Assembly: GCA_018340375.1 (NCBI GenBank)
Contig: JAFFJZ010000013.1
Span: 6,178,501 to 6,242,500 of the forward strand
DNA length: 64,000 bases
Source: Gonatopus flavifemur
Lineage: Eukaryota; Arthropoda; Insecta; Hymenoptera; Dryinidae
Direction of reading: 5' to 3'
The notes beneath the pieces are model-generated. The model ran no database searches and was not told the DNA's origin. It worked only from the letters and a program-made list of their open reading frames with translations. The position numbers and the translations under genes are program-made. Shown piece by piece: positions 3,413 to 50,540 of this stretch; the stretch's first letter is position 1; each line of letters starts with the position of its first letter.

Positions 3413-3449
3413 CAATATCAGGCATGCTAGTGGTTCAATGGTTCCAAAT

Positions 3450-3535
3450 AAGTGAGGAAAGTGAGTTGCTAGTGGAGAAAAGTGAGTGAAAAATGTGTTT
3501 CCGATTGAAAAAGTGAGTGGAAAGTGATTCACTTT
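3450..3535 (+). repeat. Left subterminal gtgag-word cluster
   Basis: About six irregularly spaced copies of aagtgag or gtgagt just inside the left TIR of the 3419-10020 element. Subterminal word clusters are typical transposase-binding regions in several DNA transposon superfamilies; that role is inferred here. Confidence 0.6.
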
Positions 3536-5155: not shown

Positions 5156-5471
5156 GGTTTCTAGAATTGTTTCTCCCACTCCCTGATTCTCCATGATCGA
5201 TTTTCACTCCCTTGAATTTTCCCTGACTTCCCAGAAGTGGGCATTCTGGAAGGAGGTACGAGTGATACAGCGTGCATAACTGGTGAAAAACAATAATACC
5301 CATAGAAATCAAATAAAGATCGATTCGTGTGGTATCGTTCTATCACTATAGAGCCCCATCGGGGGAAGTCTCTCTATTCCCACACAGCATTACAGTCCCA
5401 GAAGAATTCTCGAAGAACTCGAATCAAATTCTATTCTGAGAGTTTTTGATTTGTTATAAATTTCAGAGTTT

Positions 5472-5618
5472 CACATTATAGAGAAAGGGGTGTCAGAATT
5501 AACACCACATGGATTCTATAGGAGTCAACCCCGAAATTCGATGTTATAATAACACCGCAAGGTGTTGAAACAATTGGGGGTGGACTTCCTCTAACTCCGC
5601 CGTTTTTCTTACAGTGTA
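5472..5618. mobile_element. Short MITE, ggtgtcagaattaacac family
   Basis: Contains ggtgtcagaattaacac near the left side, ggtggactt toward the right and ttttcttacagtg at the right end. The same blocks occur, reverse-complemented, at 37022-37212 (gtgttaattctgacacc, aaagtccactccgg, tttcttacagt). Non-coding, about 150 bp. Boundaries are approximate. Confidence 0.5.
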
Positions 5619-7225: not shown

Positions 7226-7235
7226 CCTACTAGCG

Positions 7236-7821
7236 TGGAACATATTCTTGTCAAGTTGCAGTTTATTTCGAAGTCTGTTTTTATTGGAGCAAGTTACTTC
7301 CCCCTGCCTCATCATCATCTCTTCACCTTGAACATTGTGTTTCTCTGGCCGAGGTACTGTGTCAGGATTATGATTCTTCAATTTTCCTCTTCGGTGACTA
7401 CAATCTTCCGCATGTGGTTTGGCGCAATGACGACTCTTCTCTAACGGTATCGTTTCGTCCTGGTGTGACACTGAATGAATGGTCTGCGGTGGAGATTTTG
7501 ACTCAATATTCCAACTACTTTGGTTTATATAGAGAAAACAATATCTACAATGATTCCAATGGTATGCTAGACTTGATTTTTACCACCGATGAGTATGATG
7601 AAACTATTAGTCCGGTTGATTACCTCCTACATTGTGATGCTTATCATCCCCCTATTGAAATTAGATTGTATTCTCTTTCATTGAGATCTTTGTCTTGTAC
7701 CGACACGTACCGGTACAATTATAAATTGGCTGATTTTTTTTCTATACGGCAGCATTTGAAACAAATTGATTGGGATTTGGAGTTGAAATGCATGGATGTG
7801 AATACTGCTATTAGTTTTTTG
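7236..7821 (+). pseudogene. C-terminal half of retrotransposon endonuclease
   Basis: The APE-type endonuclease signature FLFGDYNLPHVVW is encoded near 7390-7430, followed by residues resembling LDLIFTT and by YLLHCDAYHPPI, which correspond to the last catalytic motifs (SDH-like, here CDAYHP). The N-terminal half, with the first catalytic Asn and Glu motifs, is absent. At least one frameshift lies before 7414 and the frame ends in a stop at 7822. It belongs to the same ORF2 as the reverse transcriptase that follows. Confidence 0.7.
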
Positions 7822-7836
7822 TAAGATCAACTTTCT

Positions 7837-9804
7837 GTGGCCATTGAGTTGTACGTTCCGAAAACATTGATCAAAAGATCTATTTATCCTCTTTGGTTGA
7901 CTCCTGAGCTCAAAAAATTAATTAGAAGAAAGAAAGTTGCCCATATGATTTACAAATCGTCTTATAGTCGCGGCGATTATTTAGCGTTCTCTTTTCTGCG
8001 TGCTCAATGTAAATCACAAGCTCGGGCTTGTTATTCGAATTACATTCGCCAAGTTGAGACTAATATTCAAAAAGATGTCAAATCTTTTTGGAATTTCGTT
8101 AACAGTAAGCGGTCATTTAATGACTTACCTAGTACTATCATGTTAAATAATGTAGTTGCTGACTCTGCAGCTGGAATGGCTAACCTTTTTGCTGATCACT
8201 TTTCATCGGTTTTTGCTTCACATAACTCGGTTAATGTTAACCATTCTAGACATGATATGTCATTCAACATGCTTTCTGATTTGGCTATTACCATAGGAGA
8301 GATCTACTCTGTTCTTGATTCGTTAGATACGAGCAAGGGCCCAGGATTTGATGGCCTTCCGCCGTTGCTGTTCAAGTCTTGCAAATTTATTCTTTCTCGA
8401 CCGCTTTGGATTATCTTCAATAAATCTCTTTCTTCCGGATGTTTCCCTGCTGAATTGAAAACGAGCCTGATCTCTCCTATTTTCAAGCATGGTAATAAAC
8501 TGGATGCTAAGAATTATAGACCTATAAGTATTTTAAATGTTATGTCCAAGATTTTTGAGCGCATGGTTGTTGAGAAGATTACTCCTTTGTTGTCTCCTCT
8601 TATTATCCCGGAACAACATGGTTTCATGTCAATGAGGTCTACTACTACGAATTGAGCTGCTTTCTGTAATTACACCGCCATTGCGCTGGAGAATAACTCA
8701 CAAGTTGATGTTATTTACACTGATTTCAGTAAAGCGTTTGATACCGTACCTCACAGCGTTCTTCTCTCTAAGTTGAGTAGCTTTGGAATATCTGGTAATC
8801 TGAAACTTTGGTTCCAGAGTTACTTAACTGATCGGGTGCAGATGGTAAAAGTTCGGAACTGTTTTTCTGAACCGATTATACCTTCTTCGGGAGTGCCCCA
8901 GGGATCCCACCTTGGTTCACTCTTATTTTTGTTATTCATAAATGACATTGGGCAGGTTCTTAATGATTGTGATTTCCTGGTATTTGCTGATGATCTAAAA
9001 ATCTTCAAGAACATAAAATGTCTTGCGGATGTCCATCACTTACAGTCAGTATTATCGAGATTAGATTCTTGGTGCACCCGTAATTCTCTGCATCTGAACT
9101 TAGAAAAATGCTGTGTAATGAGAATCTCGCGGTCAAGGAATCCTCTCATATTCTCCTACAAGATTGCAAATGTTACATTGAATACTGTTAAATCTTATGT
9201 TGATCTTGGTGTCACTATAAATGATGAATTGGATTTTTCTGAGCATTCTGTGAATGCTTGTGGTACTGCGCTGAGAAATCTCGGCTTCGTCAAAAGATTT
9301 TCTAGTGATATCAGGAATGTTAGGTCATTAAAAGTACTATATTCCTCTTGAATTAGACCCCATCTTGAATATGCGTCCCCTATCTGGTCTCCGTACTTGA
9401 AGAAGGATATTAGAATGATTGAGAGTGTGCAACTCAAGTTTTTACGCTTTGCTGCTTTTAGAATAGGCTGCCCTATGAGATATTTTGACCATGATTACTC
9501 CAGAATTCTTCACAGAATGAATTTAACTACCCTCGAAGAGCGGAGACAAATGAATGATCTCCTATTTCTTTTTGAATTGATTAATGGTTTTTTTGATTGC
9601 GAGTCATTGCTGAGTGAAGTTAATTTTAACATCCCCGGTAGACCAGTTAGGAGAGCGCTTTTATTCAGACCTGTACAATTTAAATCTAGATTTGGAAATT
9701 ATGATCCGATTTCTCGCATTTGTGAATTAGCAAATAATTTCGATAGGTCGATGGAATTGTTTGGTGTTTCCTTGAATCGGTTTAAACTGTCGGTTAATGC
9801 ATGA
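7837..9804 (+). pseudogene. Reverse transcriptase domain of CR1/Jockey-like element
   Basis: One frame, broken by stops at 8653-8655 and 9349-9351, encodes the RT fingers, palm and thumb in order. SKGPGFDGLPP is motif 1; KNYRPIS comes next; motif A is VIYTDFSKAFD with its catalytic Asp; then GVPQGSHLG; and motif C is LVFADDLKIF, the FADD box with both Asp kept. A C-terminal region of about 200 residues follows, ending at 9804 in SLNRFKLSVNA. All three catalytic aspartates are present, but the stops and the missing endonuclease half mean no functional protein. It copied element RNA at a nicked target in its active ancestor. The copy at 30383-31665 is its closest relative in the window. Confidence 0.85.
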
Positions 9805-18385: not shown

Positions 18386-19058
18386 CCACAGGTGAGATAA
18401 GAACATGTTGGCCGGTTTTTTTCAGGATACTTCAATGAAGTTCTCATTTGGCGATATTCATTCCACGGACAGTCCTTCTTAGGATATTCGGCGGTTCTTA
18501 TCCACAGATGAGGTAAGAATATCCTGGCTGGTCCTTTTCAGGATAATTCAAGGAAGTTCTCATTTGGCGGTATTTATCTCACCGATAGTCCGCAAGTGAG
18601 GTGAGAATATCTTGGTCAATCTTTTTCAGGATGATACAAGAAAGTTCTCATTTGGGGGTATTTATTTCACCGATAGTCTCTCTTAGGATAGTTGGCGGTT
18701 TTTCTCCACAGGTGAGGTGAGAATACCTTGGACGGTCCTTTTCAGGATAGTTCAAGAGCGTTGCGATTTCATGGTGGTCACTTCACCAACAGTTTTTCTC
18801 AGGATAGTTGGCAGTTTTTCTCCACAGGTGAAGTGATAACATCTTGATTGGTCCTTTTCAGGATAGTTCAAGAAGGCTCTCATTTGGCGATGGTGACTCC
18901 ACTGACAGTCTTTTTTAGGATAATTGGAGGTTTTTCTCCACAGGTGAGGTGGTTGAACAGTCCTTTCCAGGATAGTCCAAGGACGTTCCCATTTGACGAT
19001 AGTTACTTCACCGATAGTCTTCTTTAGTATAGTTGACGATTCTTCTTCTCAAGTGCAG
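18386..19058 (+). repeat. 116-bp tandem array upstream of the piggyBac-like transposase
   Basis: Units are marked by ctccacaggtgaggtgagaa and ccttttcaggatagttcaag. Phase points at 18386, 18502, 18590, 18706, 18822 and 18938 give spacings of 116, 88, 116, 116 and 116, so one unit has lost 28 bp. The array runs directly into the presumed start codon at 19059. It may hold promoter or transposase-binding sites; that is inference. Confidence 0.85.
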
Positions 19059-20680
19059 ATGGTATTTTTGGAGCAGACGTTGGTTTATGAAATGGCTGAG
19101 AGAGAAGCTTGGAGTAGCGGTGAATCCGAACCACAAGGAGAGAACACTGGGAATAAAGAATTTGATGCCGTTGATTTGGAGTATGCCGTCTATGATGTAA
19201 CTCAGATCTGTGATGATGCGCATTTTCACCCATCAATCAAAGATTTTGAAGGTAGTTCTAAAACCAATCCCAACGCCTCCATAACCGGAAATTCACCGGT
19301 AGATTTTTTCAATCATTTTTGCGATTCTTCCCTGGTTGAAAAGATCGTAACGGAGACAAATCGTTATCACGCCCAAAGTCCTCAAAGTTCATATCCCCAT
19401 ACGGAAGACTGGTGCCCTCTTACGGGAGATCAATTCGGAATATTTCATGGTCTCTCAATTCTCATAGGAGATGTTCGAAACGTTGATTTGGAAGATTATT
19501 GGTCTACGGATCCTTTGTTATATACTCCAATTCTTCGAGAAACAATGCGTCGTGATAGATATTTTAAAATTCTGCGACATTTACACTTGCAAGAAAATGA
19601 AGATGATTCAGAATTTGTCAACCATTCTTTACGAAAGATCAAACCAGTGATAAATCACCTCCAAACCAAATTTTCGGGAGTTCTCATTCCAGTCAAGAAC
19701 CTGTGCATAGACGGAAGTCTGTTATTATGGAAAGTTAGGCTTCGATTCAAACAATATATTCCTCTCAAAACAAGTCGTTTTGGCATGAAGTTGTCCGAGT
19801 TGGTAGACTGCGATACCGGATCCATTCTAGGCTTCATTGTCTACACTGGAGCAGATACTGAATATCAAAAGTTCGGATTAGGTGTTACCGGTGATATTGT
19901 CGCTGACTTCTTACAACCTTGTTTTTATAAGGGTCATTTTATATACTCGTACATAGACAATTGGTATACATCCCCTACTTTGGCTGAATTCTTACATGAT
20001 CGTGATACGGGAATTTGTGGTACGGTCGAAGCCAATAGAAAGGGAATGCCAAAGCTAGAAAATAAATTACAACGAGGTGAGGTACAAATCGCTCATAATT
20101 ATGTTTGGATGGCAATGAAGTGGGAAGACAAACGTAGTGTTCGCATGCTTACAAGTGTACACGAACCAGGATTTTGTGCGACCGGAAAAAAAATTATAAA
20201 ACTGAAGAAGACATTATGAAGCCAACGTGTATTCATGACTACAATGAAAATATGGGTGGCGTTGACAATGTAGATAGACAACTATCGATAACCGGAACAG
20301 TACGAAAAACAATGAGGTGGTATCGGAAGCTCTTTTTTCGCCTTATCGAATATGTCTATGTAATGCTCATGCTTTGTATGAAAGTATACCTCAACAGTAT
20401 ACATCGTTTCCTTCATTTCGTTCACAAACAGCTAGGGCATCATTGAAACTGGAGTCTACTGAAAGGATTCCTCGTGACAAACTCTCTCTGCCTCGACTAA
20501 TTGGTCGCCACTTACCACAATCTACTACAAAACGAAGGTGCCAATTGTGCGCTCTGCGTAAAACGACGGCGCGAACAAATTACACATGCCCCATTTGCAA
20601 TATCCCTCTATGCATCACGCCATGCTTCGAAGAGTACCAAACTCGAGGGATCTTACCGCGAGTTCAATTGATTCAAAAGA
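19059..20680 (+). pseudogene. piggyBac-like transposase pseudogene
   Basis: DDE transposase of the PF13843 (DDE_Tnp_1_7) type. The start ATG 19059 lies at the end of the 116-bp array; an alternative is 19089 (MAEREAW). An acidic N-terminus is followed by the catalytic core: CIDGSLLLWK with the first Asp (family members usually have DE, here DG), FKQYIPLKTSRFGMK, GFIVYTGAD, then YIDNWYTSPTLAEFL with the second Asp. A frameshift near 20190-20215 leads to NMGGVDNVDRQLS with the third Asp and MRWYRKLFFRLIEY. A second frameshift near 20360-20400 leads to the C-terminal Cys-rich domain (CQLC, CPIC, CITPC), the zinc-binding end domain of piggyBac transposases. With two frameshifts it should be non-functional, though otherwise nearly complete. 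Confidence 0.9.
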
Positions 20681-30382: not shown

Positions 30383-31665
30383 TTTTTTTTTTTTATTGCA
30401 ATACACGGGTTAGCACCCTTTGATATAAAAAGTAAATACAGAGTCAATACAAGACAGCGTCCAAAGACGCATAAAATACAATTACAATAGGGTCATGCAT
30501 TAACCGACAGTTAAAACCGATTCAAGGAAACATCAAACAATTCCATCAACCGATCGAAATTATTTGCTGATTCACAAATGCGAGAAATCGGATCATAATT
30601 TCCGAATCTAGATTTAAATTGTACAGGTCTGAATAAAAGCGCTCTCCTAACTGGTCTACCGGGGATGTTAGAATTAACTTTACTCAGCAATGACTCGCAA
30701 TCAAGACAACCATTAATAAATTTAAAAAGAAATAGGAGATCATTCATTTGTCTCCGCTCTACGAGGGTAGTTAAATTCTGTGAAGAATTCTGGAGTAATC
30801 ATGGTCAGAATATCTCATAGGGCAGCCTATTCTAAAAGCAGCAGAGCGTAAAAACTTGTGTTGCACACTCTCAATCATTCTAATATCCTTCTTCAAGTAC
30901 GGAGACCAGATAGGGGACGCATATTCAAGATGGGGTCTAATTAAAGAGGAATATAGTACTTTTAATGACCTAACATCTTTGAAATCACTAGAAAATCTTT
31001 TGACGAAGCCGAGATTTCTCAGCGCAGTACCACAAGCTTTCACAGGATGCTCAGAAAAATCCAATTCATCATTCATAGTGACACCAAAATCAACATAAGA
31101 TTTAACAGTATTCAATGTAACATTTGCAATCTTGTAGGAGAATATGAGAGGATTCCTTGACCGCGAGATTCTCATTACACAGCATTTTTCCAAGTTCACA
31201 TGCAGAGAATTACGGGTGCACCAAGAATCTAATCTCGATAATACTGACTGTAAGTGATGGACATCCGCAAGACATTTTATGTTCTTGAAGATTTTTAGAC
31301 CATCAGCAAATACCAGGAAATCACAATCATTAAGAACCTGCCCAATGTCATTTATGAATAGCAAAAATAAAAGTGGACCAAGGTGGGATCCCTGGGGCAC
31401 TCCCGAAGAAGGTATAATCGGTTCAGAAAAACAGTTCCGAACTTTTACCATCTGCACCCGATCAGTTAAGTAACTCTGGAACCAAAGTTTCAGATTACCA
31501 GATATTCCAAAGCTACTCAACTTAGATAGAAGAACGCTGTGAGATACAGTATCAAACGCTTTACTGAAATAAGTGTAAATAACATCATCTTGTGAGTTAT
31601 TCTTCAGCGCAATGGCGGTGTAATTACAGAAAGCAGCCAAATTTGTAGTAGTAGACCTCATTGAG
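30383..31665 (-). mobile_element. CR1/Jockey-like retrotransposon, 5'-truncated copy
   Basis: On the minus strand it starts within the reverse transcriptase (MRSTTTNLAAF) and runs to the 3' UTR and A-tract (T-run at 30383-30394 on the plus strand). Homology to the 6640-9919 copy stops at about 31665, which marks the 5' truncation typical of target-primed reverse transcription. It is inserted in the 5' part of the hAT element. Confidence 0.9.
30511..31665 (-). pseudogene. Truncated reverse transcriptase of CR1/Jockey-like element
   Basis: Encodes most of the RT palm and the C-terminal region. Two of the three catalytic aspartates are changed: motif A reads IYTYFSKAFD instead of IYTDFSKAFD, and motif C reads FADG instead of FADD. 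A stop near 30771 separates the last part (MNDLLFLFKFINGCLDCESL). Outside these changes it is very close to the plus-strand copy at 8640-9804, including the GVPQGSHLG box, so the two copies are of similar origin. Confidence 0.9.
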
Positions 31666-32259
31666 GAACCCTGGTGCAAAAGTGGCTGAATGAAATGAAC
31701 AATAAACATTTAACGTGTATTATTGGAGACATAGTTTGTAGTGTATGTAACGATAGAGGTGAGCAGTATTCACAGTTTGAATATGTAGAAATCAATTTTC
31801 AATTGCCGGAATTTTTACATGAATATACTGAGAAAAAGATTTTATCCTGACAAATCAATGTATTTAATTGAACATTTTCATGAGGCGTTGTTTCTCACAA
31901 ATGAAACTTGTTCATTATTACCAAAAATTGTATTGAATCAAAGAGTTCATATTTAATAACTATAATCACATCATTCATTTCATTCAAACTTATCGAGATT
32001 AATTTCAATGAATATAATTTCTCAAGTTGGATTTCTCAAATCATAATCGGTATGGAGTGAATTCAGAGAAATATGTGTTGCATTCATCAAGTATGTGATG
32101 AAATCAATATTATTAGTATTTCTTCGGCCGTATCCGAGTATACGATTTATTCAGTATAAATGAATCTGATTTGATGCAATGAATCTTTTTACTCCAGCGT
32201 ACGAAAACGATTGTGAAGATTTTTTGAATATTATTTCTGAAATAATTGATAATATTTTA
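31666..32259. other. hAT 5' interior, no clear coding
   Basis: AT-rich sequence between the retrotransposon and the recognisable transposase. A frame near 31708-31830 shows CSVC but no firm domain. It could contain a decayed first exon. Confidence 0.35.
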
Positions 32260-33710
32260 GATTGTGTGTAATAGAAAATCGCAAATAGAGCAACATTGAT
32301 GCACCAAAAGACGAACAGAACGTAGAACTCTTGAATAGTTGCTTCTCGCCAATCGATTCAAATTCTGCTGATGGAAATCAGCAACAAACGAAGTCAACGA
32401 GGCAAAATCAATTTTTTATTGACATGTGCGAAGCAATGGTAGCAATCAAAATGCCTTGGCGAAGTTTGAGTAATGAACTTTGGCGAAAATTCCTAACAAA
32501 ATATACAGGTCAAAAAATTCCTGATGAATCAACTCTTCGCAAAGTTATTTGGACGACTGTTATCGCACACTTATAAACATAAAAGAAGACCTAGGAGACA
32601 ATTATATTTGGATTTCTGTGGATAAAACTACAGATTCAACTGGCAGACAAGTAGCGAATTTGATAGTTGAAAACTATGTGAAGGAGAAAAAACAGAGCCA
32701 CACTTGGTTGCTTGTAAATTTCTTGATAAGACAAATTATGAGACGATATCGCGTCTTATTAATTCGTCGTTGCAAGCATTTCATAACAACGCCGAATTTC
32801 ATGAGAAAGTACTGCTTCTTGTCACAGATGCAGCAGCTTATATGTTAAAAGCAGTCAGCCATTTGAAAGATTTTTACCCAAACATGAAACATTTGACATG
32901 TTTGGCACATGGATTTTATAGAATTGCGGAAGATATCCGAAATAATTTCCCAGAAGTTAACAAACTAATATCTTCTGGAAAAAAAGTGTTTTTAAAAGCT
33001 CCGCTGCGCATCCAAGCATTCAAAGAAAAATTACCCGATACTTCGTTACCACCTGAACCAGTTTCAACCCGGTGGGGAACTTGGATTGCAGCGGCTTTGT
33101 ACTATGCGGAAAATTTGCAGGATATTAAGATTGTAAGTTTTGGATGATTATGAATTTTACATTTTGAATAATCTCATGAATGATTACATATTTCATATCC
33201 TCAACAGGTGATTGAATTATTCGATGCAAATGAGGCTTCATCGATAAAATCAGCCATTCAAGTCTTTCAGAATAAGGAATTAGCTCAAGACTTGGCTTAT
33301 ATGAAATCTCATTTTTCAAATTTACCACAAACCATCACACGATTGGAATCTTTAGGATTACCATTGAGTCAATCATTGGAAATAGCGGACAATTCAACCT
33401 GTGAACTGAATCTAATATCAGGAGCATGTGGTGAGGAAATAAAGTTAAAAACCGAGAATGTATTCAAAAGAAACCCAGATTTCGTAGAAATATTTCAAAT
33501 AGGGAGAATATTAGGGCATGAACAAGTTGAATCCATTGTAAATATCCCATCTAAGCTATGGAGTAAACATAAATACGCCCCTGTAACATCTTGCGATGTT
33601 GAGAGATCGTTCTCAGCATACAAGCTGTTATTAAGAGATAAACGATACAATTCGACAATAGAAAATATGAAGAAAAGTCTGATCCTTTATTGTTATTTGA
33701 ATTCTAATTT
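32260..33710 (+). pseudogene. hAT transposase pseudogene with a 75-bp intron (CGGBP1-like hAT)
   Basis: The reading starts in a remnant like the end of a BED-type finger (KSQIEQH, then APKDEQNVELLN). It continues FFIDMCEAMVAIKMPW and GQKIPDESTLRKV, then, after a one-base shift near 32546, DNYIWISVDKTTDSTGRQVA with a catalytic Asp; after another shift near 32700, KFLDKTNYET, VTDAAAYM with the next Asp, LTCLAHGF and TRWGTW. A phase-0 intron 33133-33207 (gtaagt ... caacag) follows AENLQDIKI. The last exon ends with the hAT C-terminal dimerisation region (TSCDVERSFSAYKLLLRDKR). The two frame shifts make it a pseudogene. The set of motifs resembles CGGBP1-related hAT transposases; that placement is from memory of the family. 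Confidence 0.8.
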
Positions 33711-33882
33711 GAATGTATGTTATTGCATATTTTTTGCATATTTTGCATATGTTTTCTTGCATTATTCTGCATATTTTCGATATGCACTTGATAAATTGAT
33801 CACATATCAAAAACAAATTGACTCATTCAATTTTTACCTTCATTCATTGGTGAATTGTTGATGCATAAACTTCCGCAGTCTA

Positions 33883-35097: not shown

Positions 35098-35165
35098 CCA
35101 AAATTTGAAGAGTCATTTTCCCTGACTTTCCCTGACTTTCACTGACCATGTTCAAAATTTTCCCT
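35098..35165. repeat. Possible left end of a cagggttccccc element
   Basis: Starts cagggttccccc and soon shows ttccctgactttccctgact words. The right-end counterpart at 50403-50540 has the same words on the same strand and ends ggggggaccctg. The 6 bp outside the two ends (ctttca and ttccaa) do not match, so they may be separate copies rather than ends of one element. Confidence 0.4.
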
Positions 35166-35422: not shown

Positions 35423-36740
35423 CATTCTGTCAAACAAGTACCGGGAATTCTTGAATAAAACACAAAATATTTTTTATTCTTCCAAATCTATTGTATCGCC
35501 TTCAAAGTAGTCCCCTCCCAAAATGATACATTTATGCCAACGAACAATCCAATCATCAAAACATTTTTTATACGCTTTTTCCGGAATCGATTTCGGTTCT
35601 CGCCGCGAATTCTCTTTAATATCTTCTATCGATTCAAAACGGGTGCCTCGAAGTGGTAATTCAAGATTTGGAAACAGAAAAAAGTCGGCTGGAGCCAGAT
35701 CAGGTGAATACGGTGGCTGTTCGATAATATTTGTTGAGTTTTTGGCCGAAAATTGGTTCACAATGAAAGCCTTGTGAGATGGTGCATTATCGCGATGCAA
35801 AATCCATGAATTTTCTTTCCACAAATCTAACCTTTTTCGACGAATTTGCTCTCTTAAACGCCGCATATCGCTGAGATGATATTCTTTATTCACCGTCTGA
35901 CCTTCTGGCAAGAATTCCGAATGTACAACACTGCGATAATCAAAAAACACAGTCAACATTACCTTTACTTTTGATCGGCTTTGGCGTGGCTTTTTCGGTT
36001 TCGGCTCAGCTGGAAGCCGCCACTCCGAAGCTTGTTGACTGGTTTGCATGTCATATTCGTAAACCCATGTCTCATCACCTGTTATAATGCGTGTTATGAA
36101 TGTGGAGTCGAAATTGACTCGTTCTAGCACGTCTTCAGCGACCTGTACGCGATTCAGTTTTGGGAGAAAATTCAAGTCTTTCAGAACTAATCGAGCGGCA
36201 ACGCGTTTCATGTCCAAACAATCATGTAAAATAGTACGAACTGATTCGTAAGATACAGAAAGTTCACCTGCTCTCTCTCTCAAACTGAATTGACGATTTT
36301 CAGTCACCATTTCCTTCACTTTATCGATATTAACTTCAGTTAAAGACGTCAATGGACGACCAGAGCGAGGCAAATCTTCCACCACATCTCGACCACTTTT
36401 GAATGCACTGTACCGCTCATATGCACGTGTTTTTGATAGAGTCAATTCACCGTAAGCCTTCTCCAACATTTTCAGCGATTCGGCACACGAAATTCCATTT
36501 GCAACGCAAAATTTAAAACAAATTCTTTGTTCAATCTTTGTATCCATTGTGACAATCGCGGGACACAGTTGAGAGAACTGAAAAGATCGAGCACTATAAA
36601 CAAACTGAATGACAGATGACAATCGAACTCCGCGTCAACATACAGGACGAATGTACCAACTTAACAACAAAAAGAATGTTGACAAACCCGTTAGCCGCAC
36701 TTTTTAAATGATCAATTCCCGGTACTTTTTTGACAGAATG
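35423..36740 (-). mobile_element. mariner element with open transposase, potentially intact
   Basis: A 1318-bp element flanked by TA (35421-35422 and 36741-36742). The 27-bp TIRs read cattctgtcaaacaagtacc on the left and, complemented, cattctgtcaaaaaagtacc on the right, both followed by gggaatt: one mismatch in 27. It carries one uninterrupted transposase gene. Matching ends and an open frame suggest recent arrival compared with the other two mariners. TIRs and protein differ from both, so this is a third lineage. Confidence 0.95.
35474..36547 (-). CDS. mariner transposase, full-length open reading frame
   Basis: DD34D transposase of 357 residues. The frame is open 25 codons further upstream, but MDTKIEQRICFKF is the start expected for the family. 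The N-terminal HTH_48-like domain contains GISCAESLKMLEKAYGE and YSAFKSGRDVVEDLPRSGRP; the second helix-turn-helix covers FSLRERAGELSVSYESVRTI. The catalytic triad is complete: IITGDETWVYEYD, ILHRDNAPSHK and YSPDLAPADFFLF, with 34 residues between the second and third Asp. The C-terminus KCFDDWIVRWHKCI and GGDYFEGD is as usual. I see no frameshift or stop. It resembles the mariner group often annotated in insect genomes as SETMAR-like. Activity is not proven: single changes in the core cannot be judged by eye. Confidence 0.95.
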   Translation of the reverse strand: MDTKIEQRICFKFCVANGISCAESLKMLEKAYGELTLSKTRAYERYSAFKSGRDVVEDLPRSGRPLTSLTEVNIDKVKEMVTENRQFSLRERAGELSVSYESVRTILHDCLDMKRVAARLVLKDLNFLPKLNRVQVAEDVLERVNFDSTFITRIITGDETWVYEYDMQTSQQASEWRLPAEPKPKKPRQSRSKVKVMLTVFFDYRSVVHSEFLPEGQTVNKEYHLSDMRRLREQIRRKRLDLWKENSWILHRDNAPSHKAFIVNQFSAKNSTNIIEQPPYSPDLAPADFFLFPNLELPLRGTRFESIEDIKENSRREPKSIPEKAYKKCFDDWIVRWHKCIILGGDYFEGDTIDLEE

Positions 36741-37640: not shown

Positions 37641-37699
37641 TAAAAAATACACAAATGTCCCTTGAAAATTTTCTGCTGGAATCAAATGTTCCAATATTC

Positions 37700-37856
37700 G
37701 TGTCTGTGAAGTTGGCATATCAAATGTCAGCATCGCACAAAAAAGCACCAGTTCTAGTCGCATCCACTATAGTTCTACAGTTCTTGATAAGTTACAACAA
37801 TAGTTCCGGGTAAATTTGTGAAAAAAATCGATTTTGAAAAAATGATATGCTAAGTT
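37700..37856 (+). repeat. Left unique terminal segment of the foldback element
   Basis: Non-repeated terminal segment (gtgtctgtgaag ... gttccgggtaaatttg ... atcgattttgaaaaaatgat). It is almost perfectly mirrored at about 50240-50393, where long blocks such as ttgatatgccaacttcacag and catttgatatgcc complements are unchanged. The ends would be the transposase-recognition part. Confidence 0.9.
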
Positions 37857-38135
37857 CTTCTACAATATGACAGCATCGCAGGGGTAATGGAAGGAAATTG
37901 ACTATATCTAGGAGTTCTAGGGATGATTGGGATGCGAGGATGTCAAAACAAGGGAGTTCTGATGCTAGGAGTGCTTAAGAAATTTTTTTCGGGAATTAAA
38001 TGAAGAGACATGAGGAGTTTTTCTACGATGTAGTAGCAGCGCAGGTGGAACCGCTGGAAGTGGACTATATCTCGGAGTTCTACGGCTGATTGGCATGTGA
38101 GGATGTCAAGGAACGAGAGTTCTGATGTTGGGAGT
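37857..38135 (+). repeat. 163-bp repeats, two units, left arm
   Basis: The marker gaggatgtc occurs at 37936 and 38099, exactly 163 bp apart. Units share the order gcagcgcagg or gcatcgcagg, ggactatatctcggagttct, gggatg(c/t)gaggatgtc, gagttctgatg and gggaatta. The right arm has three such units. Confidence 0.9.
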
Positions 38136-41100
38136 AATCAGGGAGTCAATTGGGAGTCCCAGAGAATCGGGAGTTCCGACCAGCATATCATTGAGAATCG
38201 AGAGTTCTGATCAGCATATCCTAGAGAATCGATAGTACTGACCAGCATATCATTAAAAATCGATAGTTCTGACCAGCATATCGTTGAATATCAACAGTTC
38301 TGAGCAGCAATTCATTGGGAATCAATTGTTCTGACCAGCATATCATGGAAAATCGATAGTTCTGACCAGCATATCATGGAAAATCAATAGTTCTGACCAG
38401 CATATCATAGAAAATCGATAGTTCTGACCAGCATATCATGGAAAATGGAGAGTTCTGACCAGCATATCATAGAAAATCGATAGTTCTGACCAGCATATCA
38501 TAGGAAATCGATAGTTCTGACCAGCATATCATAGAGAATCCATAGTTCTGATCGGCATATCATAGAAAATCGATAGTTCTCACCAGCATATCATAGGCAA
38601 TCGACAGTTCCGACCAGCGGATCATAGAAAGTGGAGAGTTCTGATGAGCATATCATAGAAAATCGAGCGTTCTGATCGGCATATCATAGAAAATCGATAG
38701 TTCCGACCAGCATATCATTGGAAATCGATAGTTCTGACCAGCATATCATAGAAAATCGATAGTTCTGACCAGCATATCATGGAAAATCAATAGTTCTGAC
38801 CAGCATATCATAGAAAATCGATAGTTCTGACCAGCATATCATAGAGAATGAAGAGTTCTGATGAGCATATCATAGAAAATCGACAGTTCTGACCAGCATA
38901 TCATGGAAAATGGAGAGTTCTGATCGGCATATCATAGAGAATCGATAGTTCTGGTCGGCATAGCATAGAAAATCGATAGTTCTGACCAGCATATCATGGA
39001 AAATCGATAGTTCTGATCGGCATATCATAGAAAATCGATAGTTCTGACCGGCATATCATGGAAAATGGAGAGTTCTGATGAGCATATCATATAAAATCGA
39101 TAGTTCTGACCAGCATATCATGGAAAATGGAGAGTTCTGACCAGCATATCATGGGAAATCGATAGTTCTGACCAGCATTTCATGGAAAATCAATAGTTCT
39201 GACCAGCATATCATGGAAAATCAATAGTTCTGACCAGCATATCATGGAAAATGGGGAGTTCTGATGAGCATATCATAGAAGATCGATAGTTCTGACCAGC
39301 ATATCATGGAGAATCGATAGTTCTGACCAGCATATCATAGAAAATCGATAGTTCTGAGCAGCATATCATGGAGAATGGAGAGTTCTGACCAGCATATCAT
39401 AAAAAATCGATAGTTCTGACCAGCATATCATAGAAAATCGATAGTTCTGACCAGCATATCATGGAAAATCAATAGTTCTGACCAGCGTATCATAGAAAAT
39501 CGATAGTTCTGACCAGCATATCATAGAGAATGAAGAGTTCTGATGAGCATATCATAGAAAATCGACAGTTCTGACCAGCATATCATGGAAAATGGAGAGT
39601 TCTGATCGGCATATCATAGAGAATCGATAGTTCTGGTCGGCATACCATAGAAAATCGATAGTTCTGAACAGCATATCATGGAAAATCGATAGTTCTGATC
39701 GGCATATCATAGAAAATCGATAGTTCTGACCAGCATATCATGGAAAATGGAGATTTCTGATGAGCATATAATATAAAATCGATAGTTCTGATCGGCATAC
39801 CATAGAAAATCGATAGTTCTGACCGGCATATCATAGAAAATCGATAGTCCTGACCAGCATATCATAGAAAATCGATAGTTCTGACCAGCATATCATAGAA
39901 AATCGATAGTTCTGACCAGCATATCATAGAAAATCGATAGTTCTGACCAGCATATCATAGAAAATCGATAGTTCTGACCAGCATATCATAGAGAATCGAT
40001 AGTTCTGACCAGCATATCATAGAAAATCGATAGTTCTGACCAGCATATCATAGAAAATCGACAGTTCTGACCAGCATATCATAGAAAATCGATAGTTCTG
40101 ACCAGCATATCATTGAAAATCGATAGTCCTGACCAGCATATCATAGAGAATCGATAGTTCTGACCAGCATATCATAGAAAATCGATAGTTCTGACCAGCA
40201 TATCATAGAAAATCGACAGTTCTGACCAGCATATCATAGAAAATCGATAGTTCTGACCAGCATATCATTGAAAATCGATAGTTCTGACCAGCATATCATA
40301 GAGAATCGATAGTTCTGATCGGCATATCATAGAAAATCGATAGTTCTCACCAGCATATCATAGGCAATCGACAGTTCCGACCAGCGGATCATAGAAAGTG
40401 GAGAGTTCTGATGAGCATATCATAGAAAATCGAGCGTTCTGATCGGCATATCATAGAAAATCGATAGTTCCGACCAGCATATCATTGGAAATCGATAGTT
40501 CTGACCAGCATATCATAGAAAATCGATAGTTCTGACCAGCATATCATGGAAAATCAATAGTTCTGACCAGCATATCATAGAAAATCGATAGTTCTGACCA
40601 GCATATCATAGAGAATGAAGAGTTCTGATGAGCATATCATAGAAAATCGACAGTTCTGACCAGCATATCATGGAAAATGGAGTGTTCTGATCGGCATATC
40701 ATAGAGAATCGATAGTTCTGGTCGGCATAGCATAGAAAATCGATAGTTCTGACCAGCATATCATGGAAAATCGATAGTTCTGATCGGCATATCATAGAAA
40801 ATCGATAGTTCTGACCAGCATATCATAGAGAATCGATGGTTTTGACCAGCAAATCATCAGAAATGAAGAGTTCTGACCAGCATATCCTTGAAAATCGACA
40901 GTTCTGTTCAGCAAATCATTGATTATCCATAGTTCTGATCAGCATCCCCTAGAAATCGATAGTTCCGACCAGCATATCATTGGAAATCGATAGTTCTGAT
41001 CAGCAAATCATCGAAAATCGACAGTTCTGACCAGTATATCCAACAAAATCGATAGTTCTGACCAGCATATCATGGAAAATCAATAGTTCTGACTAGCATA

Positions 41101-41396
41101 TCATAGAAAATCGATAGTTCTGATCGGCATATCATAGAAAATCGACAGTTCCGACCAGCAAATCATCGAAAGTGGAGAGTTCTGATGAGCATATCATAGG
41201 AAATCGATAGTTCTGATCGGCATATCATAGAAAATCGATAGTTCTGACCTGCATATCAAATAAAATCGATAATTCTCACTAGCATAACATAGGAAATCAA
41301 TAGTTCTGACCAGCATATCATAGAGAATCGATGTTTCTGACCAGCAAATCATCAGAAATGAAGAGTTCTGATCAGCATATCCTGAAAATCGACAGT
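38136..41396 (+). repeat. 31-bp tandem array, left arm, ~105 units
   Basis: The unit is of the form gaccagcatatcatagaaaa plus tcgatagttct (31 bp). Common variants are ggaaaatgga, gatcggcat and gatgagcat. Identical variant blocks recur at exact multiples of 31, for instance caccagcatatcataggcaa at 38581 and 40348, 1767 bp or 57 units apart. No unit encodes a recognisable protein, and the array is almost free of long open frames. Confidence 0.95.
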
Positions 41397-44300
41397 TCTA
41401 TGATATGCTCATCAGACCTCTCCATTTTCCATGATATGCTGGTCAGAACTCTCCATTTCCCATGAGATCCTGGTCAGAACTGTCGATCCTCTATGATATG
41501 CCGGTCAGAACTATCGATTTTCTATGATATGTTGGTCAGAACCATTGATTTTCTATGACATGCTGGTCAGAACTATCGATTTTCTATGATATGCTGGTCA
41601 GAACAATTGATTCCCAATGATTTGCTGGTCAGAACTGTTGATATTCAACGATATGCTGGTCAGAACTATCGATTTTTAATGATATGCTGGTCAGAACTAT
41701 CGATTTTCTATGATATCCTGGTCAGAACTATCGATTTTCTATGATATGCTGGTCGGAACTATCGATTTTCTATGATATGCCAATCAGAACTATCGATTTT
41801 CTATGATATGCTGGTCAGAACTATCGAATCTCCATGATATGCTGGTCAGAACTATCGATTTTCTATGATATGCTGGTCAGAACTATTCATTTTCTATGAT
41901 ATGCTGGTCAGAACTATCGATTTCCAATGATATGCTGGTCGGAACTATCGATTTTCTATGATATGCCGATCAGAACTATCGATTTTCTATGATATGCTCA
42001 TCAGAACTCTCCACTTTCTATGATTTGCTGGTGAGAACTATCGATTCACTATGATATGCTGGTCAGAACTATCGATTTTCTATGGTAGGCCGACCAGAAC
42101 TATCGATTCTCTATGATATGCCGATCAGAATTCTTCATTTTCCATGATATGCTGGTCAGAACTATCGATTTTTAATGATATGCTGGTCAGAACTATCGAT
42201 TTTCCATGATATGCTGGTCAGAACTACCGATTTTCCATGATATGCTGGTCAGAACTCTCCATTTTCCATGATATGCTCATCAGAACTCTCCATTTTCCAT
42301 GATATGCCGATCAGAACTATCGATTTTCTATGATATGCTGGTCAGAACTCTCCATTTTCCATGATATGCTCATCAGAACTCTCCATTTCCCATGATATGC
42401 CGATCAGAACTATTGATTTTCTATGATATGCTGGTCAGAACTATTGATTTTCCATGATATGCTGCTCAGAACTATCGATTTTCTATGATATGCTGGTCAG
42501 AACTATCGATTTTCCATGATATGCTGGTCAGGACTATCGATTTTCTATGATATGCTGGTCAGAACTATCGATTTTCTATGGTATGTCGATCAGAACTATC
42601 GATTTTATATTATATGCTCATCAGAACTCTCCATTTTCCATGATATGCTTGTCAGAACTATCGATTCTCCATGATATGCTGGTCAGAACTATCGATTTTC
42701 TATGATATGCTCATCAGAACTCCCCATTTTCCATGATATGCTGGTCAGAACTATTGATTTTCCATGATATGCTGGTCAGAACTATTGATTTTCCATGATA
42801 TGCTGGTCAGAACTATCGATTCTCCATGATATGCTGGTCAGAACTATCGATTCTCCATGATATGCTGGTCAGAACTATCGATTCTCTATGATATGCTGGT
42901 CAGAACTATCGATTCTCCATGCTATGCTGGTCAGAACTATCGATTTTCTATAGTATGCCGACCAGAACTATCGATTCTCTATGATATGCTCATCAGAACT
43001 CTTCATTCTCTATGATATGCTGGTCAGAACTATCGATTCTCCATGATATGCTGGTCAGAACTATCGATTTTCTATGATATGCTCAACAGAACTCTTCATT
43101 CTCTATGATATGCTGGTCAGAACTATCGATTTTCTATGGTATGCCGATCAGAACTATCGATTTTATATGATATGCTCATCAGAACTCTCCATTTTCCATG
43201 ATATGCCGATCAGAACTATCGATTTTCTATGATATGCTGGTCAGAACAATACATTTTCAATGATATGATGATCAGAACTATCGATTTTCTATGATATGCT
43301 GGTCAGAACTACCGATTTTCCATGATATGCTGGTCAGAACTCTCCATTTTCCATGATATGCTCATCAGAACTCTCCATTTCCCATGATATGCCGATCAGA
43401 ACTATTGATTTTCTATGATATGCTGGTCAGAACTATTGATTTTCCATGATATGCTGCTCAGAACTATCGATTTTCTATGATATGCTGGTCAGAACTATCG
43501 ATTTTCCATGATATGCTGGTCAGGACTATCGATTTTCTATGATATGCTGGTCAGAACTATCGATTTTCTATGGTATGTCGATCAGAACTATCGATTTTAT
43601 ATTATATGCTCATCAGAACTCTCCATTTTCCATGATATGCTTGTCAGAACTATCGATTCTCCATGATATGCTGGTCAGAACTATCGATTTTCTATGATAT
43701 GCTCATCAGAACTCCCCATTTTCCATGATATGCTGGTCAGAACTATTGATTTTCCATGATATGCTGGTCAGAACTATTGATTTTCCATGATATGCTGGTC
43801 AGAACTATCGATTCTCCATGATATGCTGGTCAGAACTATCGATTCTCCATGATATGCTGGTCAGAACTATCGATTCTCTATGATATGCTGGTCAGAACTA
43901 TCGATTCTCCATGCTATGCTGGTCAGAACTATCGATTTTCTATAGTATGCCGACCAGAACTATCGATTCTCTATGATATGCTCATCAGAACTCTTCATTC
44001 TCTATGATATGCTGGTCAGAACTATCGATTCTCCATGATATGCTGGTCAGAACTATCGATTTTCTATGATATGCTCAACAGAACTCTTCATTCTCTATGA
44101 TATGCTGGTCAGAACTATCGATTTTCTATGGTATGCCGATCAGAACTATCGATTTTATATGATATGCTCATCAGAACTCTCCATTTTCCATGATATGCCG
44201 ATCAGAACTATCGATTTTCTATGATATGCTCATCAGAACCCTTCATTCTCTATGATATGCTGATCAGAACTATCGATTTTCCATGATATGCTGGTCAGAA

Positions 44301-47300
44301 CTACCGATTTTCCATGATATGCTGGTCAGATCTATCGATTTTCCATGATATGCTGGTCAGGACTATCGATTTTCTATGATATGCTGGTCAGAACTATCGA
44401 TTTTCTATGGTATGTCGATCAGAACTATCGATTTTATATTATATGCTCATCAGAACTCTCCATTTTCCATGATATGCTGGTCAGAACTATCGATTCTCCA
44501 TGATATGCTGGTCAGAACTATCGATTTTCTATGATATGCTCATCAGAACTCCCCATTTTCCATGATATGCTGGTCAGAACTATTGATTTTCCATGATATG
44601 CTGGTCAGAACTATTGATTTTCCATGATATGCTGGTCAGAACTATCGATTCTCCATGATATGCTGGTCAGAACTATCGATTCTCCATGATATGCTGGTCA
44701 GAACTATCGATTCTCTATGATATGCTGGTCAGAACTATCGATTCTCCATGCTATGCTGGTCAGAACTATCGATTTTCTATGATATGCTCATCAGAACTCC
44801 CCATTTTCCATGATATGCTGGTCAGAACTATTGATTTTCCATGATATGCTGGTCAGAACTATCGATTTTCTATGATATGCTCATCAGAACTCTCCACTTT
44901 CTATGATTTGCTGGTCGGAACTGTCGATTGCCTATGATATGCTGGTGAGAACTATCGATTCACTATGATATGCTGGTCAGAACTATCGATTTTCTATGGT
45001 AGGCCGACCAGAACTATCGATCCTCTATGATATGCCGATCAGAATTCTGCATTTTCCATGATATGCTGGTCAGAACTATCGATTTTTAATGATATGCTGG
45101 TCAGAACTATCGATTTTCTATGATATCCTGGTCAGAACTATCGATTCTCTATGATATGCTCATCAGAACTCTTCATTCTCTATGATATGCTGGTCAGAAC
45201 TATCGATTCTCCGTGATATGCTGGTCAGAACTATCGATTTTCTATGATATGCTGGTCAGAACTCTTCATTCTCTATGATATGCTGGTCAGAACTATCGAT
45301 TCTCCATGATATGCTGGTCAGAACTATCGATTTTCTATGATATGCTCATCAGAACTCTTCATTCTCTATGATATGCTGGTCAGAACTATCGATTTTCTAT
45401 GGTATGCCGATCAGAACTATCGATTTTATATGATATGCTCATCAGAACTCTCCATTTTCCATGATATGCCGATCAGAACTATCGATTTTCTATGATATGC
45501 TCATCAGAACCCTTCATTCTCTATGATATGCTGATCAGAACTATCGATTTTCCATGATATGCTGGTCAGAACTACCGATTTTCCATGATATGCTGGTCAG
45601 AACTCTCCATTTTCCATGATATGCTCATCAGAACTCTCCATTTTCCATGATATGCCGATCAGAACTATCGATTTTCTATGATATGCTGGTCAGAACTCTC
45701 CATTTTCCATGATATGCTCATCAGAACTCTCCATTTCCCATGATATGCCGATCAGAACTATTGATTTTCTATGATATGCTGGTCAGAACTATTGATTTTC
45801 CATGATATGCTGCTCAGAACTATCGATTTTCTATGATATGCTGGTCAGATCTATCGATTTTCCATGATATGCTGGTCAGGACTATCGATTTTCTATGATA
45901 TGCTGGTCAGAACTATCGATTTTCTATGGTATGTCGATCAGAACTATCGATTTTATATTATATGCTCATCAGAACTCTCCATTTTCCATGATATGCTGGT
46001 CAGAACTATCGATTCTCCATGATATGCTGGTCAGAACTATCGATTTTCTATGATATGCTCATCAGAACTCCCCATTTTCCATGATATGCTGGTCAGAACT
46101 ATTGATTTTCCATGATATGCTGGTCAGAACTATTGATTTTCCATGATATGCTGGTCAGAACTATCGATTCTCCATGATATGCTGGTCAGAACTATCGATT
46201 CTCCATGATATGCTGGTCAGAACTATCGATTCTCTATGATATGCTGGTCAGAACTATCGATTCTCCATGCTATGCTGGTCAGAACTATCGATTTTCTATG
46301 ATATGCTCATCAGAACTCCCCATTTTCCATGATATGCTGGTCAGAACTATTGATTTTCCATGATATGCTGGTCAGAACTATCGATTTTCTATGATATGCT
46401 CATCAGAACTCTCCACTTTCTATGATTTGCTGGTCGGAACTGTCGATTGCCTATGATATGCTGGTGAGAACTATCGATTCACTATGATATGCTGGTCAGA
46501 ACTATCGATTTTCTATGGTAGGCCGACCAGAACTATCGATTCTCTATGATATGCCGATCAGAATTCTTCATTTTCCATGATATGCTGGTCAGAACAATCG
46601 ATTTTTAATGATATGCTGGTCAGAACTATCGATTTTCTATGATATGCTGGTCAGAACTATCGATTTTCTATGGTATGTCGATCAGAACTATCGATTTTAT
46701 ATTATATGCTCATCAGAACTCTCCATTTTCCATGATATGCTGGTCAGAACTATCGATTCTCCATGATATGCTGGTCAGAACTATCGATTTTCTATGATAT
46801 GCTCATCAGAACTCCCCATTTTCCATGATATGCTGGTCAGAACTATTGATTTTCCATGATATGCTGGTCAGAACTATTGATTTTTCATGATATGCTGGTC
46901 AGAACTATCGATTCTCCGTGATATGCTGGTCAGAACTATCGATTTTCTATGATATGCTGGTCAGAACTCTTCATTCTCTATGATATGCTGGTCAGAACTA
47001 TCGATTCTCCATGATATGCTGGTCAGAACTATCGATTTTCTATGATATGCTCATCAGAACTCTTCATTCTCTATGATATGCTGGTCAGAACTATCGATTT
47101 TCTATGGTATGCCGATCAGAACTATCGATTTTATATGATATGCTCATCAGAACTCTCCATTTTCCATGATATGCCGATCAGAACTATCGATTTTCTATGA
47201 TATGCTCATCAGAACCCTTCATTCTCTATGATATGCTGATCAGAACTATCGATTTTCCATGATATGCTGGTCAGAACTACCGATTTTCCATGATATGCTG

Positions 47301-49780
47301 GTCAGAACTCTCCATTTTCCATGATATGCTCATCAGAACTCTCCATTTTCCATGATATGCCGATCAGAACTATCGATTTTCTATGATATGCTGGTCAGAA
47401 CTCTCCATTTTCCATGATATGCTCATCAGAACTCTCCATTTCCCATGATATGCCGATCAGAACTATTGATTTTCTATGATATGCTGGTCAGAACTATTGA
47501 TTTTCCATGATATGCTGCTCAGAACTATCGATTTTCTATGATATGCTGGTCAGAACTATCGATTTTCCATGATATGCTGGTCAGGACTATCGATTTTCTA
47601 TGATATGCTGGTCAGAACTATCGATTTTCTATGATATGCTCATCAGAACTCCCCATTTTCCATGATATGCTGGTCAGAACTATTGATTTTCCATGATATG
47701 CTGGTCAGAACTATTGATTTTCCATGATATGCTGGTCAGAACTATCGATTCTCCATGATATGCTGGTCAGAACTATCGATTCTCCATGATATGCTGGTCA
47801 GAACTATCGATTCTCTATGATATGCTGGTCAGAACTATCGATTCTCCATGCTATGCTGGTCAGAACTATCGATTTTCTATGATATGCTCATCAGAACTCC
47901 CCATTTTCCATGATATGCTGGTCAGAACTATTGATTTTCCATGATATGCTGGTCAGAACTATCGATTTTCTATGATATGCTCATCAGAACTCTCCACTTT
48001 CTATGATTTGCTGGTCGGAACTGTCGATTGCCTATGATATGCTGGTGAGAACTATCGATTCACTATGATATGCTGGTCAGAACTATCGATTTTCTATGGT
48101 AGGCCGACCAGAACTATCGATTCTCTATGATATGCCGATCAGAATTCTTCATTTTCCATGATATGCTGGTCAGAACTATCGATTTTTAATGATATGCTGG
48201 TCAGAACTATCGATTTTCTATGATATCCTGGTCAGAACTATCGATTTTCTATGATATGCTGGTCAGAACTATCGATTTCCAATGATATGCCGGTCGGAAC
48301 TATCAATTTTCTATGATATGCCGATCAGAACGCTCGATTTTCTATGATATGCTCATCAGAACTCTCCACTTTCTATGATCTGCTGGTCGGAACTGTCGAT
48401 TGCCTATGATATGCTGGTGAGAACTATCGATTTTCTATGATATGCCGATCAGAACTATCAATTTTCTATGATATGCTGGTCAGAACTGTCGATTTTCTAT
48501 GATATGCTGGTCAGAACTATCGATTCTCTATGATATGCTCATCAGAACTCTTCATTCTCTATGATATGCTGGTCAGAACTATCGATTCTCCGTGATATGC
48601 TGGTCAGAACTATCGATTTTCTATGATATGCTGGTCAGAACTCTTCATTCTCTATGATATGCTGGTCAGAACTATCGATTCTCCATGATATGCTGGTCAG
48701 AACTATCGATTTTCTATGATATGCTCATCAGAACTCTTCATTCTCTATGATATGCTGGTCAGAACTATCGATTTTCTATGGTATGCCGATCAGAACTATC
48801 GATTTTATATGATATGCTCATCAGAACTCTCCATTTTCCATGATATGCCGATCAGAACTATCGATTTTCTATGATATGCTCATCAGAACCCTTCATTCTC
48901 TATGATATGCTGATCAGAACTATCGATTTTCCATGATATGCTGGTCAGAACTACCGATTTTCCATGATATGCTGGTCAGAACTCTCCATTTTCCATGATA
49001 TGCTCATCAGAACTCTCCATTTTCCATGATATGCCGATCAGAACTATCGATTTTCTATGATATGCTGGTCAGAACTCTCCATTTTCCATGATATGCTCAT
49101 CAGAACTCTCCATTTCCCATGATATGCCGATCAGAACTATTGATTTTCTATGATATGCTGGTCAGAACTATTGATTTTCCATGATATGCTGCTCAGAACT
49201 ATCGATTTTCTATGATATGCTGGTCAGAACTATCGATTTTCCATGATATGCTGGTCAGGACTATCGATTTTCTATGATATGCTGGTCAGAACTATCGATT
49301 TCCTATGGTATGTCGATCAGAACTATCGATTTTATATTATATGCTCATCAGAACTCTCCATTTTCCATGATATGCTGGTCAGAACTATCGATTCTCCATG
49401 ATATGCTGGTCAGAACTATCGATTTTCTATGATATGCTCATCAGAACTCCCCATTTTCCATGATATGCTGGTCAGAACTATTGATTTTCCATGATATGCT
49501 GGTCAGAACTATCGATTTTCTATGATATGCTGGTCAGATCTATTGATTTTCCATGATATGCTGGTCAGAACTATCGATTTTCCATGATATGCTGGTCAGA
49601 ACAATTGATTCCCAATGATTTGCTGCTCAGAACTGTTGATATTCAACGATATGCTGGTCAGAACTATCGATTTTTAATGATATGCTGGTCAGTACTATCG
49701 ATTCTCTAGGATATGCTGATCAGAACTCTCGATTCTCAATGATATGCTGGTCGGAACTCCCGATCCTCTGGGACTCCCAA
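41397..49780 (-). repeat. 31-bp tandem array, right arm, ~270 units, higher-order structure
   Basis: Same 31-bp unit in reverse orientation (tatgatatgctggtcagaac plus tatcgattttc). The rare variant gctgctcagaac occurs at 42461, 43453, 45809, 47514 and 49188; the steps are 992, 2356, 1705 and 1674 bp, all exact multiples of 31 (32, 76, 55 and 54 units). Whole blocks of variants, such as ctccccattttcc followed by two attgattttcc units, are repeated around these points. This shows segmental amplification in strict register. Confidence 0.95.
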
Positions 49781-50240
49781 TTGACTCCCTGATTACTCCC
49801 AACATCAGAACTCTCGTTCCTTGACATCCTCACATGCCAATCAGCCGTAGAACTCCGAGATATAGTCCACTTCCAGCGGTTTCACCTGCGCTGCTACTAC
49901 ATCGTAGAAGAACTCCTCATGTCTCTTCATTTAATTCCCGAAAAAAATTTCTTAAGCACTCCTAGCATCAGAACTCCCTTGTTTCGACATCCTCGCATCC
50001 CAATCATCCCTAGAACTCCTAGATATAGTCAATTTCCTTTCATTACCCCTGCGATGCTGTCATATTGTAGAAGAACTCAGCATATCATTCCATTTAATTC
50101 CTGAAAAAAATTTCCCAAGCACTTCTAGCATTAGAACTCCCTTGTTTTGACATCCTCGCATCCCAATCATCCCTAGAACTCCGAGATACAGTCCATTTCC
50201 ATCCATTTTCCCTGCGATGCTGTCATATTGTAGAAGAACT
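49781..50240 (-). repeat. 163-bp repeats, three units, right arm
   Basis: The complement marker gacatcctc occurs at 49823, 49986 and 50149, twice exactly 163 bp apart. The sequence mirrors the two left-arm units; the third unit is extra. The junction gctgtcatattgtagaagaa occurs at about 50056 and 50219. Confidence 0.9.
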
Positions 50241-50402
50241 TAGCATATCATTTTTTCAAAATCGATTTTCTTCACAAATTTACCCGGAACTATTGTTGTA
50301 ACTTATCAAGAACTGTAGAACTATAGTGGATGCGACTAGAACTGGTGCTTTTTTGTGCGATGCTGACATTTGATATGCCAACTTCACAGACACCCAATAT
50401 TC

Positions 50403-50540
50403 CCTGACTTTTTATAAATTTCAATGGATTTCCCTGACTAATGGAGCATTTTGCAAACGTTCCCTGACTTTCCCTGATTGAATAAGAATTCCCTGACTTT
50501 CCCTGACTTTCTCTGACTTTCAATGCCTGGGGGGACCCTG
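50403..50540. repeat. Right end of a ccctgact / ggggggaccctg element
   Basis: Contains ten or so words of the type ttccctgacttt and ends ggggggaccctg, the complement of the cagggt(t/c)cccccc start seen at 35098. The foldback element is inserted at its left part, since the 9-bp target copy runs into the first word. The element's own left end is not certain. Confidence 0.5.

Follow-up and report, generated by a model that had tools for sequence, protein, structure and literature searches.

Foldback (FB, FB/NOF) elements of Drosophila possess inverted arms made up of a unique end and tandem repeats, with a repeat unit of 31 bp and a target duplication of 9 bp. The element described here, from the wasp Gonatopus flavifemur, resembles them in all these respects and differs in its length of 3.4–17 kb, in having up to 289 units per arm read, in its bare centre and in that no NOF segment was seen. 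Closest in biology is Tetris from Drosophila virilis, described as a non-autonomous foldback element with duplications of 8–10 bp and expanding arm units, for which an autonomous partner was not found and assignment to the Mutator group was made by duplication size (PMC4079207). According to the same description, the Tetris unit measures about 220 bp and also forms longer satDNA-like arrays, and three structurally complete copies are present in the assembly, whereas here the unit is 31 bp long, and shows no surplus outside elements, and 18 copies with intact duplications were read. Tm1 of root-knot nematodes is likewise reported to have foldback-like composite arms, many non-autonomous copies and mostly 9-bp duplications (45 of 53 at 8–10 bp), but its arm motifs are of about 14 bp and it has a 2.5-kb relative encoding a Phantom-type MULE transposase (PMC3169594). 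Such a transposase-bearing relative was not found between the ends of the present family among the copies and MULE matches compared. Rehavkus shares the 9-bp duplication, a minisatellite beside the terminus and arthropod hosts, yet encodes a PHD-finger transposase and is described with the minisatellite before the 3' end only (PMC6446971). Finally, Galileo has long arms with tandem repeats, which there are bound by the transposase, but this enzyme is of the P type (PMC3688188). The kind of element is already known; it differs in its scale, a bare centre of two types and a body consisting of arrays only. A description of the element itself was not encountered in the titles and abstract openings searched, which leave most subscription papers and Repbase uncovered, and it may already be catalogued.

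The window, i.e., the whole stretch of 64,000 nucleotides analysed, lies in contig C35 of the 636-Mb assembly (402 contigs) that was used for all genome searches. Positions 37700–50393 form an element of 12,694 bp whose inverted ends enclose 163-bp repeats and two 31-bp arrays of opposite orientation. It is directly flanked by perfect copies of CCAATATTC (Table 1). An earlier, sequence-only reading of the locus had given exactly these coordinates and inverted termini, and its perfect 9-bp target duplication as well as its arm composition of unique ends, 163-bp and then 31-bp repeats are confirmed, the latter by repeat and arm analysis. Absent from that reading were the inequality of the arms, with about 104 units on the left and 270 on the right (104.5 versus 269.8 copies in opposite orientation according to Tandem Repeats Finder), and the bare centre, where array orientation flips without any unique middle. 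Between the two arms of this copy, the outer 157 bp differ by a single base, and further inside, from the 163-bp repeats as far as the first 31-bp units, 453 of 459 positions agree after a shift of 163 bp, necessary because the right arm has one extra 163-bp unit.

Table 1. Parts of the foldback element and its target duplications, in window coordinates.
Feature	Position	Strand	Basis
Left 9-bp target site duplication, CCAATATTC	37691–37699		Sequence
Outer left terminus, 157 bp, starting GTGTCTGTGAAGTTGGCATATC	37700–37856	+	100% identical at 40/40 scored genome places
163-bp repeats of left arm, the right arm having one unit more	37857–38160	+	Repeat period
Left array, 31-bp units, about 104 copies, forward	38161–41399	+	Tandem Repeats Finder
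Centre, junction type A, GACAGTTCT/ATGATATGC, orientation flip, without unique middle	41391–41408	+	28 genome places
Right array, 31-bp units, about 270 copies, reverse	41396–49758	-	Tandem Repeats Finder
163-bp repeats of right arm (49795–50252, 2.8 copies)	49759–50236	-	Tandem Repeats Finder
Outer right terminus, inverted copy of 37700–37856, one difference	50237–50393	-	Arm comparison
Right 9-bp target site duplication, CCAATATTC	50394–50402		Sequence

Other repeats are present in the same window. An open frame of 386 aa with a mariner-type transposase domain (Transposase_1) is located at 35474–36634 on the minus strand, and a piggyBac-type transposase frame (DDE_Tnp_1_7) at 18957–20219 on the plus strand; the best named relatives of the latter are from ants and parasitoid wasps, the closest being 73% identical and from Monomorium pharaonis, while most matches are nameless. 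By eye, one non-LTR reverse transcriptase is recognizable in two copies (7234–9804, plus strand, and 30771–31709, minus strand), with a reverse transcriptase domain at 7825–8655 scoring slightly below the Pfam cut-off, together with a broken hAT-like frame (32671–33861, plus strand), the first part of which has DUF659 and MULE matches below the Pfam cut-off. Decamer repeats of TTCCCTGAC occur at 35117–35146 and at 50489–50521, the second about 100 bp to the right of the element in a flank with more of this motif.

Throughout the genome, the terminal 32-mer is found at 215 ends when allowing up to three mismatches (109 + 106; reversed control 0), corresponding to about 107 element equivalents. 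The outer 157 bp were 100% identical at all 40 scored places (457 candidates, window copy included). Among the 100 listed exact matches to the terminal 22-mer, 46 convergent neighbouring pairs less than 30 kb apart span 3,359–17,058 bp (median 8.0 kb), besides one divergent and one same-strand pair. Fourteen copies were read whole (the window copy, 11 others, L058 and L061), and from end loci both flanks were read for four more pairs (L032/33, L044/45, L050/51 and L052/53). Long inverted arms with tandem repeats are present in 12/12 copies as well as in L058 and L061, and wherever both flanks were read (18 copies) the 9-bp duplication is perfect, with a different sequence in each copy; further copies with such duplications, which the sequence-only reading had proposed to look for, thus exist in number. 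Compared with the consensus over 157 bp, 47 of 49 distinct ends show 0–2 differences, in a sample that leans to young copies by being chosen through exact end matches. Of the 215 ends, 100 were placed, the remaining 115 and most tip-only ends lying outside the placed set. The window element belongs to a genuine family of transposons that was active recently.

Some ends deviate from this picture, the two exceptions among the 49 being L056 and L038. End L056 is older, matching the young family at 94% along 160 bp; a query with its arm found the young family and the other end of its own 14.4-kb copy (C24:5162260-5176680), the middle of which is outside the sequence read. At L038 (C1:33589452), a single truncated arm extends 446 bp from the terminus and is followed by ATATTTCAT, which also borders the terminus, so that a 9-bp duplication encloses an element having only one canonical end. 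A pair of ends 48 kb apart on C1 was rejected as one element and represents two separate ones. Likewise, an asymmetric class in which a full arm is paired with a bare tip, suspected from the exact 22-mer matches, was abandoned because L058 turned out to be an ordinary symmetric copy with its 32-mer off by one base. The tip 22-mer occurs at 421 places (control 2) and the inner arm 22-mer at 239 (control 11); the roughly 190 ends with a tip but no recognizable arm may be decayed copies with better-kept tips or belong to other families, and an autonomous partner is possibly among them. Pairs of the inner arm 22-mer 1.7–3.7 kb apart that are absent from the exact-tip matches (C57:1711234-1714925, C57:5106416-5108086 and, pointing outwards, C68:6436647-6438942) are possibly short or rearranged variants.

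Related empty sites could be obtained for the copy on C78. This copy is inserted into a mariner/Tc1-like repeat; its flanks, once joined and translated, resemble a DDE transposase by eye. When the 240 nt of joined flanks with one copy of the duplication were used as query, all 40 scored places (678 candidates) matched without interruption from base 1 to 240 at 96–97%, with a target span of 238 nt, i.e., a 2-base length difference somewhere in the join. These empty sites are other copies of the target repeat rather than the orthologous locus, and concern one copy of 18. Joins of 16 copies compared with the fetched sequence only did not reveal an empty site, the sole spanning match in this local search being that of the L050 join to its own right flank.

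Only two centre sequences occur in the copies read whole, at seven copies each. In centre A (GACAGTTCT/ATGATATGC) a forward unit meets a reverse unit at a common TTCT, as judged by eye, whereas centre B reads ATAGTTTTTTTCGATAGTCG. With up to three mismatches, A is found at 28 and B at 66 places in the genome (controls 0). Within 54 convergent pairs (46 plus seven from end-match lists and one from the L056 older-arm query), 52 contain A or B and none contains both; in one of the other two the centre is B minus one T, and in the other, the L056 copy, it lies outside the sequence read. Two or three centres of the same type and in one orientation are present in five pairs (C1:48944512-48954095, C78:2099286-2109187, C110:56367798-56377875, C110:59566551-59575581 and C323:12652014-12660945), as if blocks had been duplicated across the centre. 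Five type-A copies, out of seven read and each at its own locus, share a variant set in the left arm and a different set in the right arm, while the type-B copies C1c_1 and L058 share a variant set in the right arm only; the window copy and C68, both of type A, do not display the left-arm set, one arm of each being excluded from the variant comparison. Altogether, three of 42 arms (window left, C68 right and C1c_0 right) were left out of this comparison because of differing numbers of 163-bp units. Where the side-specific variants recur across loci, arms and centre have been inherited together, and whole palindromes have therefore moved. We infer that the family descends from two founders. In C13 the two arms show no difference over 640 bp, those of C110a differ by gaps only and those of the L032/33, L044/45 and L052/53 copies have the same informative variants, which suggests that arms occasionally homogenise each other. 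Mean differences between arms show essentially no contrast within (0.058) and between elements (0.062–0.068), a comparison that is confounded by unequal numbers of 163-bp units and in place of which the variant comparison was used.

While the ends are nearly identical among the copies read, array lengths vary greatly, up to 289 units per arm. In comparisons between copies with the same centre, unit order is often common near the ends and the centre and differs in blocks in the interior; some other array comparisons have nothing in common. The closest three comparisons, among the right arms of C1a, C1b and C110b, show 9, 17 and 10 substitutions, respectively, but also 5, 7 and 3 gaps of whole blocks, which add up to 118, 61 and 73 units. 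A common higher-order period, as in satellites, does not stand out over 12 copies, and individual arrays have long block periods of their own, e.g., 57 units in the left arm of the window copy. Exact unit numbers may be wrong, as large palindromic arrays are hard to assemble. A unit 20-mer occurs, with up to one mismatch, at 21.2 per kb in 12 copies and at 16,205 places in the genome (8,154 + 8,051; control 0). If all resided in elements, about 16,000 (87 centre clusters) to 19,800 (215 ends) would be expected, a rough balance calculated with a mean element of 8.67 kb and from the assembly, which unassembled satellite would escape. The number of units fits what the elements alone would give, with no sign of an independent satellite in the assembly.

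Apart from 16–36 bp at the centre (range from 12 copies), each of the 14 copies read whole consists of arms and arrays, and a gene would find no space there. In L058, the one open frame of at least 80 aa comprises 94 aa and lies inside array and arm. Neither a NOF-like segment nor a PHD-finger transposase is present in these 14 copies, and an A or B centre sequence is found in 53 of 54 pairs. A profile search of the genome for the MULE domain (PF10551) gave 150 scored matches out of 323 candidates. From these, 87 matches were hand-picked on contigs with at least one of 159 listed places of ends, centres or arm words, and the nearest is 18 kb from such a place; a longer copy with a MULE transposase between the family ends, also suggested by the sequence-only reading, was not found among them. 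One further match, C370:5690178, is 12.9 Mb from the sole listed place on its contig. The longest MULE frame, of about 1200 aa, spans positions 2400–6001 (approximately) of locus L059 (C229:1074200-1080200) and continues into L060. It has MULE and ZSWIM RNaseH-like domains, a SWIM-like CxC..CxH stretch seen by eye, an in-frame 186-bp minisatellite of 6.4 copies and, at the C-terminus, a PHD finger below the Pfam cut-off (22.5 versus 24 bits), an architecture that appears Rehavkus-like, with relatives in Patiria, Cotesia and Microplitis. As autonomous partner this frame was rejected because family termini and 31-bp arrays are lacking in the 6 kb scanned and a long terminal inverted repeat in 9 kb.

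Taken together, we are confident that the locus belongs to a young, non-autonomous family of foldback DNA transposons, 3.4–17 kb in the pairs listed, which would be mobilised in trans by a transposase of the Mutator group. The foldback-type transposon of the sequence-only reading is supported by inverted tandem-repeat arms, duplications and many copies with the same ends, and so is its idea of a satellite-like array travelling inside a transposon, the whole palindrome having inserted with a 9-bp target duplication at many loci. The element works like a non-autonomous Foldback, with membership in Drosophila FB, MULE or Rehavkus unproven. Supply of the transposase in trans is deduced from arms and arrays filling the copies read whole, and the Mutator group, either a classical MULE or the minisatellite-bearing Rehavkus branch, is favoured as source because of the 9-bp duplication, the long arms and the many MULE-domain matches in the genome. 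MULEs are reported to produce target duplications of 8–11 bp (PMC6446971). By itself, a duplication of 9 bp is not sufficient to assign a superfamily. Such an enzyme would bind the common termini, and perhaps the 31-bp units, cut the element out and reinsert it. Array length would change as multi-unit blocks are duplicated or lost, be it by slippage, by unequal exchange or when gaps in the palindrome are repaired, with occasional homogenisation between the two arms.

The palindrome might instead be an assembly artefact or the product of local satellite growth, given that large palindromic arrays are difficult to assemble, but this is hardly conceivable in view of 18 different 9-bp duplications in 18 copies, related empty sites, common centres and side-specific arm variants. 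True membership in the Drosophila FB/NOF family, in line with inverted arms, 31-bp tandem units and the 9-bp duplication, is very improbable, since a NOF-like segment would not fit into any of the 14 copies read whole, ten FB4 copies reported from D. melanogaster measure only 627–2266 bp (PMC2955051) and, as a weak point, the host is hymenopteran rather than dipteran.

A transposase from outside the Mutator group could also act in trans, with the foldback shape being convergent as in Galileo of the P superfamily, and no Mutator transposase with the present ends was found among the 87 MULE matches compared. The 9-bp duplication in 18 of 18 copies makes such a source unlikely, as duplications are 7 bp long in Galileo, differing from those seen here, and 8 bp in hAT and P elements. 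Nevertheless, foldback arms are known from different superfamilies (PMC3688188; PMC3169594). Descent specifically from a Rehavkus-type element whose minisatellite took over appears doubtful, although this architecture is reported in arthropods and annelids (PMC6446971) and the genome contains the 1200-aa MULE frame with in-frame minisatellite and sub-cut-off PHD finger. This frame, though, is without a matching terminus or 31-bp array (6 kb) and without a long terminal inverted repeat (9 kb), and the Rehavkus minisatellite is described as preceding the 3' end (PMC6446971), whereas here minisatellites occupy both arms.

A tentative role can be suggested for the 31-bp units as putative docking or synapsis sites, the element possibly having been selected toward an almost pure array of binding sites. 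It would then proliferate as a large inverted site array for the transposase of another element, the array being re-sized by large block changes while the ends hardly change. When the arm is scored for words resembling the unit, the outer 157 bp and the first 163-bp repeat reach values attained by only 12 and 2 of 300 shuffles, respectively, and the next two arm stretches show no excess (185 and 37 of 300), the shuffles preserving base composition but not dinucleotides. This modest similarity between outer arm and 31-bp unit is a first hint at such a role. A second hint is the presence of intact ends and centres alongside differing lengths. In the case of Galileo, the transposase is reported to bind the tandem repeats in the arms, and the same for Foldback and Phantom is called untested there (PMC3688188).

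The family is a clear example from nature of satellite-like tandem repeats that move as a transposon. With near-identical copies, clean duplications, related empty sites, two centres and a range of lengths, it makes two open questions testable, namely whether the tandem repeats of foldback arms have a function in transposition, and at what rate and by which route arrays grow inside a mobile palindrome. In the genome of G. flavifemur, the dispersed palindromes, similar as they are, amount to an estimated 0.9 Mb and might drive inversions.
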